Origin: Halanaerobium kushneri
GTDB taxonomy: Bacteria > Bacillota > Halanaerobiia > Halanaerobiales > Halanaerobiaceae
Assembly: GCF_900156285.1 (NCBI RefSeq)
Contig: NZ_FTNC01000001.1
Coordinates: forward strand, 186,001 to 250,000
Direction: 5' to 3'
DNA: 64,000 nt
Part shown: piece by piece, positions 56,690 through 64,000 of the stretch
Layout: the number at the start of each line of letters is the position of its first letter
How positions within the stretch are numbered: the stretch's first letter is position 1
Position numbers and translations under genes: made by a program
Notes under the pieces: model-generated
Seen by the model: the letters and a program-made list of their open reading frames with translations, nothing else
Databases searched by the model: none
What the model was told of the DNA's origin: nothing

Positions 56690-57130
56690 CTAATTCTTTT
56701 TTATTCCGGTGTGACCAAAACCGCCTTCTCCTCGCTGGCTTTTACTTAAATTATCGACTTCCTGCCACTCGATAATATTTACCTTCTGAATAATTAATTG
56801 AGCTATTCTATCATTAAAATTAATTTTGAAATCTTGCTCCCCGTGGTTAATTAAAATTACTCCTACTTCACCTCTATAACCAGAATCAATTACTCCGTCA
56901 GCATTTAAAACTGTTACTCCTTTTTTTAAAGCCAGACCACTGCGAGGATAAACAAAGGCTGCATACCCTTCAGGAACAGCAATTTTAAGTCCAGTTTTGA
57001 TTAATTCATATTCCCCACTTTTAATTGTTAATTCTTCTGCAGCATGCAGGTCAAGTCCTGCATCCTCACCCAGGTGCTGATATCTGGGTAACTCAATTTC
57101 TTTATTTACTCTCTCTACCTTAATTATCAT
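56690..57130 (-). CDS. dut: dUTP diphosphatase
   Basis: 146 residues with all five trimeric dUTPase motifs: EDAGLDLHA, PRSGLALKKG, NADGVIDSGYRGEV, DRIAQLII and the C-terminal RGEGGFGHTG. It hydrolyses dUTP to dUMP. ATG 57130 follows AAGGTGA; the GTG at 57139 is within it. The gene overlaps the deacetylase gene by 11 bases. Confidence 0.96.
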   Translation of the reverse strand: MIIKVERVNKEIELPRYQHLGEDAGLDLHAAEELTIKSGEYELIKTGLKIAVPEGYAAFVYPRSGLALKKGVTVLNADGVIDSGYRGEVGVILINHGEQDFKINFNDRIAQLIIQKVNIIEWQEVDNLSKSQRGEGGFGHTGIKKN

Positions 57131-57917
57131 TATTATCACCTTTCATTTTATATTGTAAACCAGTTAGAGAACTTATCTGATAATTATTATTATAAATTAG
57201 CTCTTCAATTTTGACAAATTGGTAATCTTTTTTTAAGAGTGGAATAATTTCTCTTAATATCTCAACAATATTATTTGAATTATTGTGGAATAAAAGTATA
57301 TCACCGGAATTAATATTGGAAACAACTCTCTGCAGAATATACTCTTTACCTGGATTCATCCAGTCATGAGAATCAAGACTCCACTGGATCACCTGATAAC
57401 CTAATTTCCTGGCTGTTTTAATTACAAGATTATTATATTCGCCATAAGGTGGTCGAAAAAGTTTGATTTTATTTTCATGGTTTTGATATTTATTAATTAT
57501 TGCTTCAGTTTTTTTAAGTTCACTGATTATTTCATCTTTATTTAAGTTGTTAAAATGAGGATGACTGTAGGAATGATTATAAATTTGATGCCCAGCTTCT
57601 AATATTTTTTGAACCAGCTCAGGATTATTTTCAAGCCAGATACCGGCAAAGAAAAAGGACACTTTTATTTCCTGCTGCTCAAATAACTCCAGCAGTGCTT
57701 CTGTTTTATTACTTCCCCAGGCACCATCAATTGTTAAAGTTATTTTGTTATCATCTCTATCTACTTGATAAATTGGTACCAGCCTTTGGGAACTATAATT
57801 ATTAATAAAGTTTTCTTGAGCCAGAACAGAGCTGCTGAAAAGTATAATAATTATAGTAAAAAAATAAGCCAGCTTTATTTTAGAAAGCTGGAAAGTTCTG
57901 CAAAAATTATTTAACAA
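57120..57917 (-). CDS. Polysaccharide deacetylase (YlxY/PdaB-like)
   Basis: 265 residues. A signal peptide (about 1-33, ending SSVLAQEN) precedes a NodB domain: ITLTIDGAWGSNKTEALLE (the usual TFDDGP is TIDGAW, as in the YlxY/YlaX-like subgroup), HSYSHPHF zinc motif, LFRPPYGEYN and the VIQWSLDSHDW arginine/aspartate region. In Bacillus ylxY follows pnp; here DinG, nfo and a SleB gene lie between. TTG 57917 follows AGGGGTGA. It probably acts on wall glycans in the periplasm, though loss of the second Asp may weaken activity. Confidence 0.85.
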   Translation of the reverse strand: MLNNFCRTFQLSKIKLAYFFTIIIILFSSSVLAQENFINNYSSQRLVPIYQVDRDDNKITLTIDGAWGSNKTEALLELFEQQEIKVSFFFAGIWLENNPELVQKILEAGHQIYNHSYSHPHFNNLNKDEIISELKKTEAIINKYQNHENKIKLFRPPYGEYNNLVIKTARKLGYQVIQWSLDSHDWMNPGKEYILQRVVSNINSGDILLFHNNSNNIVEILREIIPLLKKDYQFVKIEELIYNNNYQISSLTGLQYKMKGDNNDN

Positions 57918-57928
57918 AAAGTTCACCC

Positions 57929-58855
57929 CTATTCTACAAAAACATGATCTCCTATTTTAGTTACTACCCTTCTCCCTTTAAAAAAGCTAACTCTGGTAGC
58001 TGTTTTGGGATTATAAAAATAAAGTGCTCCATTTGTCGGGTCACTGCCATTTAAAGCTTCTCTTGCTGCTCTATAAGCAGTCTGATTGGGGCTTAAATTA
58101 ATTTGGCCATCACTAACTGCAGAAAATTGCCCCCCCTGATAGATTACTTCAGCAAAGGTATCTGGAAACTGATGGCTCAAAACTCTATTGATAATAACTG
58201 CTGCTACCGCAACCTGACCGGCATATGGTTCTCCCCTTGATTCACCATAGACTGCACGGGCTAAAAGATCAAGTTCCTGTTTGCTAACTCTCTGATTTAA
58301 AATTTGATGTGAAGTTAAATTATTAATTGGAAGCCGTATTCTTTCTCCACTTCGCAAAAAACTATTTTCCCTGTTATTAAGAGCCAGAATTGTCCCGATG
58401 GTAGTACTAAAATCTCTTGCCAGATCATATAGAGTATCTCCAGGCCCCACATAATAATTTATAATTTTATCTTCTGGAATTTTATCAATATTTGGTGCCT
58501 GATGACCCGGATTAATTCTGGCAGCATAATGAGTATTTATAGTAAAAGATAATTCTTCTTTGGTAGAGTTAAATTCCTTAAATAACAATTTTTTCTTATT
58601 TTTGCTTTTCTCACTTTTTTCCTGAGGAATTATTAACTCATCTCCCATTTTTATATTTGCTTTATTGGAAATGTTATTTACTGCTTTTAATTTATTAATA
58701 TCAACATCATATTCTGCCGCAATCTCGGATAAGGTGTCTCCCTGCTGAATAACATAAATCAAACTTAAGTCTGGAGCAGCAATAACAGTAACTGAAAGTA
58801 AAACTATTATAAATGATATTAAAAAGTTTATTGTAAATATTTTTATTTTTAGCAT
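57929..58855 (-). CDS. LysM-LysM-SleB cell wall hydrolase
   Basis: 308 residues: signal peptide (about 1-26), LysM 1 (about 33-77; YVIQQGDTLSEIAAEYDV), linker, LysM 2 (about 132-176; YVGPGDTLYDLARDFSTT) and a Hydrolase_2 domain (about 195-308; ARAVYGESRGEPYAGQVAVA, QFSAV, LYFYNP). LysM domains hold peptidoglycan; the last domain cuts it. The second SleB-type enzyme in this window. GGAG stands eight bases ahead of the ATG. It precedes the deacetylase gene by two bases, so the two wall enzymes are co-expressed. Confidence 0.9.
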   Translation of the reverse strand: MLKIKIFTINFLISFIIVLLSVTVIAAPDLSLIYVIQQGDTLSEIAAEYDVDINKLKAVNNISNKANIKMGDELIIPQEKSEKSKNKKKLLFKEFNSTKEELSFTINTHYAARINPGHQAPNIDKIPEDKIINYYVGPGDTLYDLARDFSTTIGTILALNNRENSFLRSGERIRLPINNLTSHQILNQRVSKQELDLLARAVYGESRGEPYAGQVAVAAVIINRVLSHQFPDTFAEVIYQGGQFSAVSDGQINLSPNQTAYRAAREALNGSDPTNGALYFYNPKTATRVSFFKGRRVVTKIGDHVFVE

Positions 58856-58858
58856 ATT

Positions 58859-61309
58859 CTAAACTCCATTATCTTCAATTTTTTTAATAATATCCTTAGC
58901 TTTTATTTCCAGAATCGGACAATCTGATGGAATTGAATCCAAAAATTGGCGTCCATAAGATCTGCTTATAACTCTTCGGTCAAATAGAATGATAAATCCT
59001 GTATCTTTTTTAGAACGTATTAATCTGCCAAAACCCTGTCTAAATTTTATAACTGCCTGTGGTAAAGCAAGATTATAAAATGGATTTAAGCCTTTTGATT
59101 TTAAAAGATCTTCCCTGGCTTTATAAAGGGGCTCTCCAGGAACCGGAAATGGCAGTTTAACCATAACTAAATATTTGAGTAAATCTCCGGGCAAATCAAC
59201 CCCTTCCCAAAAACTTGAAGTCCCAAAGATTATTGTTTGATATTCACTTTGAAACTCCTGCATTATATAATTTCGAGATAATTTTGACTGGGAGAGGATC
59301 CGAATCCCTTTTTCTTCAAGTTCTGATTTTAAATTATTATAACAATAACTCAGCATTCTGTAAGAAGTAAATAAGACCATAGTTGATCCCCGGGATTTAG
59401 ATATAATTTTTTTTAAACTGCTGACAAGTTCTTTTAAAAAATTTTTATTACCTGGATCAGGAAAATCTAAAGGAATTAAAAGCTCAGCCTGCTTTGAATA
59501 ATCAAAAGGAGATTCCACCTTTAGTTCTTCAGCTTTTTTAATGCCAGTTTCTCGATAAAAATAATCAAATGAACCCGCAGCTGTAATAGTAGCAGAAGTA
59601 AAAATTACATTTGTTAATTTAGACCAGAGCATGTCAGGCAGAAATTTCCCAGCATCAATTGGAGCTGATTTCTGTACAATCTGCTCAGAACCTCTATAAT
59701 AGCTTGATTCCAGCCAGAAAACATAATCATCATCTTCGGCCTGCAAATTGAATTCTATACGTTTAATCAGATCCTGGCAGCGATTTAAACTAGATTTGAT
59801 TTTCATTTCGCTCTCATCAGTTTCGGCTTCTAAACCAAGATATAAATTTTCGTATATGATCTGCAGAAAAGAAAAATTATTTTTCAAATAAGCAGCCAGA
59901 TCTTCTGCTGTTTGATAAAATTCGTTCCATTTAGGGTTATTTTTCAAATTATCATCGATGGTTATTTTTTTATCTTTATAATTTGAAATTAAATTTTTTA
60001 GTTCATTGAAATACTGTGGAATCAGATCTCTAATCTTTTGCGTTGTAGGAATAATTTTTTTGTCCAATATTTCTCGCAATCTTTTTTGATCAGAATCAAC
60101 TGTAAATGCAATATCTTCCCTAATCTCTGCTAAAAGCGATTTCTTATCACCACTTAATCTTTTAAGCCAGTTGTCCATCAATGGTTGATAAAGAGGGTAG
60201 CCAAGATGATCAGTTGCAATTTCACCAATATTATGAGCTTCATCGATAATTAAATGATTAAAGTTAGGCAGAATACCTCTATCAACTGAACCTGTATCAT
60301 CTTTTACCCTCGCATCAGAAAGTAAGAGATGATGATTGACAATTAAAATATCTGCTTTATAGATCTTCTTGCGTGCTTTCATAAAAAAACAATTAGAATA
60401 AAAGGGACAGGAGGTTTTTAAACAAAGGTCACTTTCAGCAGCAATTTGATTCCAGATCTTATTTTGTAACTGAAAATTAATTTCGCTTTTTTCTCCACTT
60501 TCAGTATTTTTTTTCCAATCATCTAATTCATAAAAAATTTTTTCTTCAAGCTCTAATTCTTGATTATCAAAATTCTTTTTAAAATTTTTAAATTTTCTTA
60601 AACAGAGGTAATTACTTCTTCCTTTGACTAAAACTGCATTAAAATCAAAATCCAAAACTCGTTTTAGAGTAACTAAATCTTTATTAATCAGCTGTTCCTG
60701 TAAGTTAATTGTATTTGTAGAAACTACTATCCGGGCCTGATTTAAATTATTATAAAAAAGAGCAGGTATTAAATAAGCAAAGGATTTACCAGTCCCGGTT
60801 CCAGCCTCAATAAAATCAAATTGATGTTGATTAAAAGAATCAATAATTTTTTCGGCTGTTATCAGCTGTTCTTTTCTCTCAGAAAAGCCTTTTAATTCCT
60901 GGGACAACTTTCCCTCTTTTTTAAAATAACTTAAAATTTCCTTTTTGTTCAATTTTTGCTTTTCTTTTTTAGTTCCAGCTTCGACTACTACATAAATCTG
61001 ATCTGCCTGATTATTTATAATTGCAAAACCAATTTCTCTTGCAGCCATTTTGGCGGCCAGTCGGATATCTGCTGCTGAGGGAGTTAAATCTCCCGATGGA
61101 TGATTGTGAATAACTATTTCCCCGGGCATTAAATTATTTATTACTGCAGGTGCAGAATAACTGTTGCCTCTAGCCAGAACTTCAATTTCTTCTATAATAT
61201 CTTTATTATTCAATTGAGCTCTAATAAAAATTTCATTGCCGGATGCTGCCTCTATTTCTTGTTTTATTTCCTGGCTAACTTCTAATAACATTTCAGCACT
61301 AGCAGACAA
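58859..61309 (-). CDS. DinG/XPD-family Fe-S helicase with N-terminal JAMM (RadC-like) domain
   Basis: 816 residues. Residues 1-115 form a JAMM/RadC-like domain: IHNHPSGDLTPSAADIRLA gives His68, His70, Ser78 and Asp81, with candidate glutamates at 40-43. From about 145 follows a DinG-type helicase: Walker A EAGTGTGKS (168-176), Fe-S cysteines Cys236, Cys296, Cys301, Cys307, DEAH at 356-359, and C-terminal motifs SFWEGVDLPG and QGFGRLIRS. Bacillus DinG has an exonuclease domain at this place; here a JAMM domain replaces it. TTG start after GGGAGG. It overlaps neither neighbour but is only two bases from nfo, a repair gene. Confidence 0.9.
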   Translation of the reverse strand: MSASAEMLLEVSQEIKQEIEAASGNEIFIRAQLNNKDIIEEIEVLARGNSYSAPAVINNLMPGEIVIHNHPSGDLTPSAADIRLAAKMAAREIGFAIINNQADQIYVVVEAGTKKEKQKLNKKEILSYFKKEGKLSQELKGFSERKEQLITAEKIIDSFNQHQFDFIEAGTGTGKSFAYLIPALFYNNLNQARIVVSTNTINLQEQLINKDLVTLKRVLDFDFNAVLVKGRSNYLCLRKFKNFKKNFDNQELELEEKIFYELDDWKKNTESGEKSEINFQLQNKIWNQIAAESDLCLKTSCPFYSNCFFMKARKKIYKADILIVNHHLLLSDARVKDDTGSVDRGILPNFNHLIIDEAHNIGEIATDHLGYPLYQPLMDNWLKRLSGDKKSLLAEIREDIAFTVDSDQKRLREILDKKIIPTTQKIRDLIPQYFNELKNLISNYKDKKITIDDNLKNNPKWNEFYQTAEDLAAYLKNNFSFLQIIYENLYLGLEAETDESEMKIKSSLNRCQDLIKRIEFNLQAEDDDYVFWLESSYYRGSEQIVQKSAPIDAGKFLPDMLWSKLTNVIFTSATITAAGSFDYFYRETGIKKAEELKVESPFDYSKQAELLIPLDFPDPGNKNFLKELVSSLKKIISKSRGSTMVLFTSYRMLSYCYNNLKSELEEKGIRILSQSKLSRNYIMQEFQSEYQTIIFGTSSFWEGVDLPGDLLKYLVMVKLPFPVPGEPLYKAREDLLKSKGLNPFYNLALPQAVIKFRQGFGRLIRSKKDTGFIILFDRRVISRSYGRQFLDSIPSDCPILEIKAKDIIKKIEDNGV

Positions 61310-61311
61310 CT

Positions 61312-62151
61312 TTAGTCCTCCCTTAGTTTTTTTAATAAAATAACATCATCATCTTTCTCTTTATCAAACCATGGTGTTTCTAAAATAAAAACTTTATCTC
61401 TTAATTTAGAATGATTAATTATTCGTTTAAACGCCTTGCTTCCAATTTTACCCTCTCCAATATGAGCATGTTCATCTTTGTTAGTACAGCAGTCAAATTT
61501 AGAATCATTAAGATGAAAAACTTTTAATTGTTCCAGACCAAGAATATTATCAAAATCACTGATTAATTCTTCTAAACCATTTTTCTCTGCCAGATTATAG
61601 TGAGCTGTAAAAGCATGACAGCTATCGATACAAACTCCAAGCCTATTTGACTGATCAACCTGATCAATAATTGCTTTAAGCTGAGAAAATCCTTCGCCAA
61701 TGCTGGTACCTGCACCAGCAGTATTTTCTAAAAGAATCATGGTTTCACTCTCAACTTCAGCAAAAATAATATTTAGTGCTCTGGCAATCTTTTGGATACC
61801 ATTTTCTAAACCAGAACCAGTATGACTGCCGGGATGAAAAATCAGGTATTCAGCTCCGAGCCTGTCACAGCGCTGGTATTCAGACTTAAGAGCTGAAATT
61901 GATTTTTCCCATAAATCTTTTTTAGGAGATGCCAAATTAATTAGATAGGCAGCATGTACTACAACTGGATTAATTTTATGTTTTTGTCTCGCTTTCTTAA
62001 ACCTCTCTATTTCAGCTTGCTCAACCTCACGCATTTTCCAGCCACGTGGATTTTTAACAAAAATCTGCATTGTATTACAGCCAATATCAGCTGCTCTTTG
62101 AAAAGATTTATCAAGACCACCAGCTATAGAAACATGTTTACCCAGTATCAT
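61312..62151 (-). CDS. nfo: Endonuclease IV
   Basis: 279 residues, the usual length, with the tri-zinc ligands in LIFHPGSHTGSG, LLENTAGAG, GVCIDSCHAFTAHY, FHLNDSKFD and HAHIGEGKIG. It cuts at abasic sites in base-excision repair. GGAG lies ahead of the ATG. It leads the run nfo-dinG-sleB-deacetylase-dut-thrB-hom-lysC, all tightly spaced. Confidence 0.95.
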   Translation of the reverse strand: MILGKHVSIAGGLDKSFQRAADIGCNTMQIFVKNPRGWKMREVEQAEIERFKKARQKHKINPVVVHAAYLINLASPKKDLWEKSISALKSEYQRCDRLGAEYLIFHPGSHTGSGLENGIQKIARALNIIFAEVESETMILLENTAGAGTSIGEGFSQLKAIIDQVDQSNRLGVCIDSCHAFTAHYNLAEKNGLEELISDFDNILGLEQLKVFHLNDSKFDCCTNKDEHAHIGEGKIGSKAFKRIINHSKLRDKVFILETPWFDKEKDDDVILLKKLRED

Positions 62152-62219
62152 TTAAGAGTCATCTCCAGTTATCAAGATTATTATTCACTAATATAATACT
62201 TTAACTTTATTTATTATAT

Positions 62220-64000
62220 TTATTCTTTATTGTCCAGCTCTTTTTTTGCATCTTTTAGAGATAAATTAATCCTATCCTGATTATCTATTTCAATAACTTT
62301 AACAGGAATTTCATCTCCTACAGAAACAACATCGCCAACTTCTTTTACATGATGATCAGCCAATTTAGAAATATGAACAAGCCCTTCTTTATTTGGTAAA
62401 ATTTCTACAAAAGCACCAAAGTTCATGATTCTCTTTACTTTACCCTGATAAATTTTACCAACTTTAACTTCCTCAGTTAAGCGCTCAATCATTTCTTTAG
62501 CCTGCTGGCCGCCTTCCTGATCTTCGGTCATAATCTTAACCAGACCGTCGTCTTCGATATCAATGCTGGCTCCAGTTTCATCAATAATCTTATTGATCAT
62601 CTTTCCACCAGGACCAATAACAAATCTGATCTTTTCTGGATCAATATTCATGGTGATAATTGCAGGTGCATTTTCTGATAGTTCTGGACGAGGTTCAGGT
62701 ATAACTTCCAGCATTTTACCCATGATATGCATTCTACCTTTTTTAGCTTTTTCTAGAGCTTCTTCTAAGATATCATAAGATAGACCCTTTAATTTAATAT
62801 CCATCTGTAAAGCTGTAATTCCATCTTTAGTACCAGCAACTTTAAAGTCCATGTCTCCATTAAAGTCTTCAAAGCCCTGAATATCAGACAAAATTACAAC
62901 ATCATCATCTTTTTTCATTAATCCCATAGCAATACCAGCAACAGGTGCTTTAATTGGTACCCCAGCAGCCATTAAGGCTAAAGTACTACCACAGATACTT
63001 GCCTGTGAGGAAGAACCATTAGATTCTAAAACCTCAGAAACAATTCTGATTGTATATGGAAACTCATCTTCGGATGGAATTACTGGCAGTAATGCCTTTT
63101 CACCTAAGGTACCATGACCAATTTCTCTTCTTCCTGGTGAGCGCATAGGCGCAGTTTCGCCAACACAGAAGGATGGGAAATTGTAATGGTGCATATAGCG
63201 TTTGGTTTCATTTTCCCCAAGACCAAATAGAGTCTGTTCATCACTTGAAGAACCCAATGTTAAAACACTTAAGGCCTGAGTTTCACCTCTGGTAAAGATA
63301 CCAGATCCATGAGCCCTTGGTACAAAATCAACTTCTGCCCAGATAGGTCGGATCTCATCATAATCTCTACCATCAGGACGAATTCCATCTTCAACTACTA
63401 AACTCTTAACTGATTTCTTTAACATTTTTTCAAAAGCTAAAGAAATTTGAGAATCGAGTTCTTCATCCTCTTCAGGATTAATGGTTTCTTTGAGTTCAGC
63501 TTTTAATTCATCAATTCTATCACTTCTAGGCTGTTTTTCCTGAATCTGAATAGCTTCTTTCAGCTTATCACCTAAAATCTGATCAACTTTGGCCTGAATT
63601 TCCTGATCAACAGTTGGTGGCTCAAAGTGGAATTTTTCTTCTCCAGCCTCTTCGCGCATTTCTTCCTGTAAACTAATAATCTTTTTGATCTCTTCATGCG
63701 CAGCTTTCATTGCTTCTAAAACAGTTGCTTCACTTACTTCGTTCGCACTTGCTTCTACCATCATAATAGCATCTTTACTACCTGCAACTACAAGATCCAA
63801 ATCACTATTTTCTCTTTCTTCTGCATCTGGATTAATAATAATTTCGTCATCAACAAGTCCAACTTTCACTCCTCCGATAGGTCCTGCAAAAGGTATATCA
63901 GATAAAGTTAAAGCAGCAGAAGCACCATTTAAAGCCAGAACTTCAGGATCATGATCATCATCTACAGATAAAATTGTTGCTACAATCTGTACATCATGAC
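62220..64000 (-). CDS. pnp: Polyribonucleotide nucleotidyltransferase (PNPase), 5' truncated by the window
   Basis: The frame is still open at the window end, where it reads [19 protein letters not shown], a normal internal PNPase stretch; the GTG at 63869 is therefore not the start. About 592 residues are visible: part of the first RNase PH domain, the linking helical domain, the second RNase PH domain with [19 protein letters not shown], then KH ([15 protein letters not shown]) and S1 ([18 protein letters not shown]). It degrades RNA 3' to 5' with phosphate. Its neighbourhood with a ylxY-like gene, asd, lysC and rnj matches Bacillus. Confidence 0.96.

Follow-up and report, generated by a model that had tools for sequence, protein, structure and literature searches.

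The locus and its helicase

The window, that is, the whole stretch of 64,000 nucleotides of Halanaerobium kushneri DNA that was analysed, contains at positions 58859-61309 a minus-strand open reading frame of 816 amino acids with a TTG start. Both the coordinates of this frame and its distance of two bases from nfo had been given in an earlier note, made from the sequence alone, and both were borne out; the frame starts two bases past the nfo stop codon. The gene order in 56690-63998 is pnp, nfo, dinG, a LysM/cell-wall hydrolase gene, a polysaccharide deacetylase gene and a dut-like gene. This block mixes DNA-repair and nucleotide genes with cell-wall genes, and parts of it recur across the class. 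The features of the gene and its immediate surroundings are as follows.

58859..61309, minus strand: RadC-like DinG, 816 aa, Fe-S superfamily 2 helicase preceded by a JAMM/JAB domain at the N-terminus (Pfam, NCBIfam and PDB matches, motifs, full-length model)
60965..61309, minus strand: predicted RadC-clade JAMM (JAB) domain, residues 1-115 (Pfam RadC above cut-off; AlphaFold and Foldseek)
61232..61234, minus strand: E26, predicted to act as general base in catalysis by the JAMM site (invariant in 93 domains; aligned with AfJAMM E22)
61100..61108, minus strand: H68-N69-H70, predicted zinc ligands and bracing Asn (invariant)
61076..61078, minus strand: S78, predicted oxyanion-stabilising Ser (invariant)
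61067..61069, minus strand: D81, predicted third zinc ligand (invariant)
60782..60808, minus strand: Walker A EAGTGTGKS, residues 168-176 (conserved motif)
60389..60604, minus strand: Fe-S region with C236, C296, C301 and C307 (three Cys invariant and C236 at least 90% conserved, 68 relatives)
60233..60244, minus strand: DEAH box, residues 356-359 (conserved motif)
59015..59038, minus strand: helicase motif VI QGFGRLIR, residues 758-765 (conserved motif)
61317..61321, minus strand: GGAGG ribosome-binding site for the TTG start (sequence)
61312..62151, minus strand: nfo (endonuclease IV), the upstream gene, two bases from dinG (Pfam AP_endonuc_2)

From about residue 120 onward, the protein is by its sequence an Fe-S helicase of the DinG/YoaA type with a complete set of motifs. 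Walker A, the DEAH box, motif VI and the four Fe-S cysteines are all present and conserved among 68 relatives, which confirms the DinG helicase with a complete Fe-S site that had been proposed earlier. With the whole protein as query, the best NCBIfam score was that of YoaA, 557 against a cut-off of 680, which is strong but below the equivalog level; the two DinG models also stayed below that level (540 against 789 and 432 against 598). The nearest solved chains in a sequence search of the PDB are those of E. coli DinG and S. aureus DinG. A full-length model (pLDDT 89.5, pTM 0.84) matched DinG with single-stranded DNA (6fwr) and S. aureus DinG (8zef). By homology, we infer that the helicase moves 5'-to-3'.

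The N-terminal part sets the protein apart from the better known members of the family. E. coli DinG and YoaA have a homologous Fe-S helicase without an extra N-terminal domain. ExoDinG of the S. aureus/B. subtilis type (8zef) has a homologous helicase and carries an additional enzyme domain in the same N-terminal place; that domain is a DnaQ-type exonuclease, whereas the present protein has a JAMM domain.

The RadC-clade JAMM domain

Pfam RadC matched the whole protein with 29.6 bits against a cut-off of 22.1 (E=7e-7) and the domain alone with E=8e-9, and all 16 diverse relatives that were scanned matched the same family. A profile built from 16 DinG-attached domains retrieved RadC 2qlc from the PDB with E=5e-8. 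The NCBIfam RadC equivalogs were missed by the whole protein, at 27.6 against 180 bits for NF000642 and 23.7 against 133.85 bits for TIGR00608. For residues 1-123, AlphaFold with 93 sequences gave a pLDDT of 93.2 and a pTM of 0.85, and the order of helices and strands in the model is that of the minimal JAMM domain. In the model, E26 lies just before the first strand (27-33), H68 and H70 are at the end of the third (64-69) and D81 is in the next helix. The top Foldseek match was RadC 2qlc (E 4e-5), with BubCD, AMSH/STAMBP, Sst2, PfJAMM1, CSN5, BRCC36 and Cap3 among those that followed, at TM-scores of only 0.4-0.6. Residues 1-115 are thus predicted to fold as a RadC-clade JAMM domain. The earlier note had suggested structure prediction for a JAMM fold and had read the architecture as a RadC/JAMM domain joined to DinG; the fold is indeed predicted, and the architecture agrees with the Pfam RadC match, the domain model and the full-length model.

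The JAMM motif, E-xn-H(S/T/N)H-x7-S-x2-D, is present as E26, H68-N69-H70, seven intervening residues, S78, two more residues and D81. E26 aligns with E22 of AfJAMM, for which the role of the Glu and the full residue set of a JAMM protease have been described (PMC300881); an Asn between the two His residues of the motif is a known variant (PMC300881). The His68, His70, Ser78 and Asp81 picked out earlier by eye were correctly numbered and fit HxH-x7-S-x2-D. The predicted catalytic glutamate, which remained to be located, is E26; E65 was considered for this role and ruled out, as it varies among relatives. Of the outcomes that the note said would refute its reading, neither a missing JAMM fold nor a missing catalytic Glu was borne out by the model and the alignment. 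In an alignment of 93 DinG-attached JAB domains from at least seven phyla, E26, G48, H68, N69, H70, P71, S72, P77, S78 and D81 are invariant. Since the contig set was fetched with the motif HNHPSGxLxP as bait, the letters of the bait provide no independent evidence in that set; E26, S78 and D81 do. In loci found by whole-sequence similarity and not by the motif, E...HNH-x7-S-x2-D was kept in all 53 that bear the domain, the window included, one of them with a slightly shorter spacing between E and H. In almost every member, some 100 residues separate HNHP from Walker A. Mean identity between members is 43% for the JAB and 38% for the helicase, the JAB figure being inflated by the part of the set that was fetched by JAB similarity.

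The closest solved structure, stand-alone RadC (PF04002; 2qlc), belongs to the same JAMM clade and shares the HNHPSG-PS-D core. The stand-alone RadC proteins in this analysis measure about 160-260 aa and lack a helicase, and after the Asp the DinG-attached domains mostly read A..xGxGFxI in place of the LT..LLDH of RadC. A much closer counterpart has been published. Cheng 2025 (PMC11981726) named a subgroup "RadC-like DinG", modelled it with zinc and found by DALI a similarity to PfJAMM1 and Rpn11. The example given there, DinG of Desulfuromonas soudanensis, has the same N-terminal RadC-like domain with E, H, H and D, and the same complete DinG-like helicase with the Fe-S CCCC motif, described as YoaA-like (PMC11981726). 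We found no difference in kind between that subgroup and the present protein, which comes from another lineage and is almost certainly a RadC-like DinG whose JAMM site is intact. The set of invariant residues grows here by Ser, Asn and Gly, and data on origin, on absence from relatives and on gene context are added. The earlier note had called the activity of such a protein unstudied. The 2025 review agrees, describing the subgroup as not yet investigated, but the fusion itself was already known and named (PMC11981726, PMC5512222).

Distribution, origin and gene context

The fusion gene is the only DinG-family match in the host genome, which also encodes one full-length stand-alone RadC (L002) and two short ones. 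The short RadCs (L003 and L004, at G000:C44:8168-8527 and G000:C21:45163-45522) are near-identical, lie in frames of 158-162 aa on different contigs and resemble the RadC of mobile elements. Of the set made up of the window genome and 37 relatives from its order, only two members lack the fusion, both of them incomplete assemblies; an even sample of the phylum had it in 29 of 299 genomes, from 12 families. According to named records, it further occurs in Fusobacteriota, Spirochaetota, Thermodesulfobacteriota, Gemmatimonadota, KSB1 and Sumerlaeota, in 'Deltaproteobacteria' MAGs that NCBI assigns to Myxococcota, and in one MAG each with the labels Dadabacteria and Acidimicrobiia. Some Gemmatimonadota and Citrifermentans frames have long N-terminal extensions with the look of open frame in GC-rich DNA and not of a domain. 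Searches of phages, plasmids and viruses did not find the fusion and returned partial matches only, either helicase or RadC alone, so there is no sign of a mobile-element system; the one exception was a Fusobacterium record of 2.1 Mb, the size of a chromosome. The RadC-DinG architecture is real, old and common to many bacterial phyla, and it had been described before. New here are a pattern that fits a single origin, the detection of no other DinG in the genome, the lack of the fusion among the phage and plasmid matches, the mutual exclusion of JAB and exonuclease-length extension in the sampled DinGs, the JAB-less relatives and the result on nfo.

In a tree of JAB domains, those attached to DinG and those of stand-alone RadC fall on opposite sides of a branch with 100/100 support, and the identities of JAB and helicase co-vary (r = 0.73), which is what a single fusion passed on in one piece should show. 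The sequences thus fit a single origin of the fusion. On the helicase tree the JAB must have switched between present and absent six times, and well-supported branches force three of these events, which means that some lineages lost or regained the domain. The DinG of one genome (G046) has no JAB, and four relatives in the family of that genome have it; since the domain can be missing in such close relatives, it is not indispensable. This protein (L179, G046:C1:59000-69000), a DinG from the same class in a 731-aa frame that begins at the linker two bases after nfo, offers itself for comparison as a protein that lacks the JAB by nature. The linker that precedes the helicase Q-motif is uninformative on gain or loss of the JAB because JAB-less DinGs share it. 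The DinGs of the phylum sample carry a JAB, an N-terminal extension of exonuclease length, or neither, and none carries both, the exonuclease class being assigned by the length of the extension without a domain scan.

The gene for endonuclease IV lies directly upstream of the fusion, on the same strand, in 24 of 38 JAB-DinG loci of the phylum. It is also directly upstream of 8 of 17 DinGs of the phylum that have no N-terminal domain at all, and beside none of 23 proteins of ExoDinG length in the phylum sample. Outside the host order, none of 56 JAB-DinGs in the baited contig set has nfo directly upstream, a few of these loci having little upstream sequence, and the nfo-dinG adjacency is confined to a single phylum. 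What nfo is linked to is therefore a DinG lineage of this phylum and not the JAMM domain, and the use of nfo adjacency in the earlier note as support for the function of the JAMM domain does not hold; we dropped it as JAMM-specific evidence. Among the loci L141-L177 and L179-L206, nfo directly upstream of dinG recurs with and without a JAB, and in the sample it never goes with the exonuclease-length type. These data suggest that endonuclease IV and the helicase are linked in a conserved way within one DinG lineage. They hint at a part for the helicase in abasic-site repair and are silent on the substrate of the JAMM domain. The neighbours that recur in other phyla differ from lineage to lineage.

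Two further leads from the gene context gave nothing. A search of the window for LexA-type operators with one consensus returned three sites with two mismatches where 5.5 were expected, which is no signal. SprT was considered as a mutually exclusive partner and rejected: it is absent from the host genome, but a strong SprT match is present in 3 of 29 genomes with JAB-DinG, which makes its absence uninformative.

Possible activities of the JAMM site

As far as sequence can tell, the JAMM domain is probably catalytic, because E26 and S78, which are not metal ligands, are invariant and because conservation of the JAB is no lower than that of the helicase, in a set partly selected by JAB similarity. 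Among the chemistries considered, we place peptide-bond hydrolysis on a DNA-bound protein first, since the residue set is that of the JAMM peptidases and since there is a parallel in FANCJ, a helicase of the XPD family whose unfolding of DNA-protein cross-links lets a metalloprotease cleave them (PMC12279946). The earlier note had offered helicase-coupled proteolysis of a DNA-bound protein as an example of such an activity; the published rival, a nuclease, is compatible with the sequence too. The sequence leaves this chemistry somewhat short of an even chance and hydrolysis of nucleic acid at a smaller one; these weights, like those given to the other mechanisms below, are our judgement and were not computed. 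Several points count against a protease: the N-terminal slot is the one that holds the exonuclease of other DinGs, the JAB is dispensable, the clade is said to lack a ubiquitin-tail groove, and the literature that was searched yielded no RadC-clade JAMM with a demonstrated activity.

A RadC-like domain acting as a nuclease or other nucleic-acid hydrolase, which would trim or open the displaced strand in place of the DnaQ-type exonuclease of ExoDinG, is possible but rather unlikely. It is the published hypothesis and was built on exactly such a fusion (PMC5512222, PMC3482391): Iyer, Aravind et al. 2017 (PMC5512222) took RadC-DinG fusions as grounds for proposing a role of RadC domains as nucleases or in the processing of nucleic acids, an argument for which the paper cites a 2011 paper of the same group. 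Nuclease activity was favoured there together with the statement that the RadC clade lacks the ubiquitin-tail groove (PMC5512222, PMC3482391). The mutual exclusion of JAB and exonuclease-length extension in the phylum sample points the same way. So do the resemblance of the JAMM fold to nucleic-acid deaminases, seen in Foldseek as a weak match to the dsDNA deaminase 9k3e (prob 0.54), and the presence of only one strong ThiF-family protein in the host genome, which gives little sign of a ubiquitin-like conjugation system. On the other side, the invariant residues make up the JAMM peptidase set, with the oxyanion Ser and the bracing Asn among them, and the structure search points first to RadC and deubiquitinases and not to nucleases, in line with the DALI search of 2025, which gave no nuclease similarity for the RadC-like domain (PMC11981726). 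In the literature searched, no JAMM domain was reported to cut DNA.

It is improbable that the domain binds metal without catalysis and serves as a docking or sensing module for protein or DNA that directs the helicase. Inactive MPN domains do serve as scaffolds, and the helicase of some close relatives works without the domain; however, inactive MPN domains lose the motif, and here the non-ligand Glu and Ser are invariant across phyla. Removal of a ubiquitin-like tag from DNA-repair proteins, in the manner of the eukaryotic, CBASS or Bil/Bub JAMM isopeptidases, is suggested by the Foldseek matches to AMSH/Sst2, CSN5, BRCC36, Cap3 and BubCD and is very improbable: the single ThiF-family protein argues against it, as do the missing tail-binding groove reported for RadC-clade domains (PMC5512222) and the neighbourhood survey, in which no recurrent conjugation genes were seen beside the locus. 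A chance motif or an annotation artefact, which had nothing in its favour except that the motif spotted by eye is short, is refuted by the Pfam score above cut-off, the in-frame conservation in at least seven phyla and the confident model, and its probability is negligible.

For the peptidase, the following mechanism may be envisaged. The helicase would travel on single-stranded DNA until stopped by a block, and whatever the motor then presses against the JAMM site, or unfolds, would be hydrolysed there. The likeliest target would be a peptide bond within a protein that is cross-linked to the DNA or binds it tightly. The enzyme would then be a single-chain analogue of the FANCJ helicase working with the SPRTN protease. 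That pair likewise couples an XPD-family Fe-S helicase to a zinc protease, but the likeness is one of functional analogy only, as FANCJ and SPRTN are separate proteins and SPRTN belongs to the SprT family and not to JAMM. The complete proposal, a single-chain protease-helicase in which an Fe-S motor feeds cross-linked proteins into a JAMM zinc protease as a widespread form of DNA-protein cross-link repair, is tentative, and we regard it as rather unlikely. If true, it would give the RadC clade of JAMM domains its first activity. RadC occurs in very many bacteria, and a JAMM domain fused to a well-understood single-stranded DNA motor narrows the candidate substrates to what a helicase encounters on DNA. 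With the catalytic residues predicted for this fusion kept across phyla, the question of RadC may become approachable with one purified protein.
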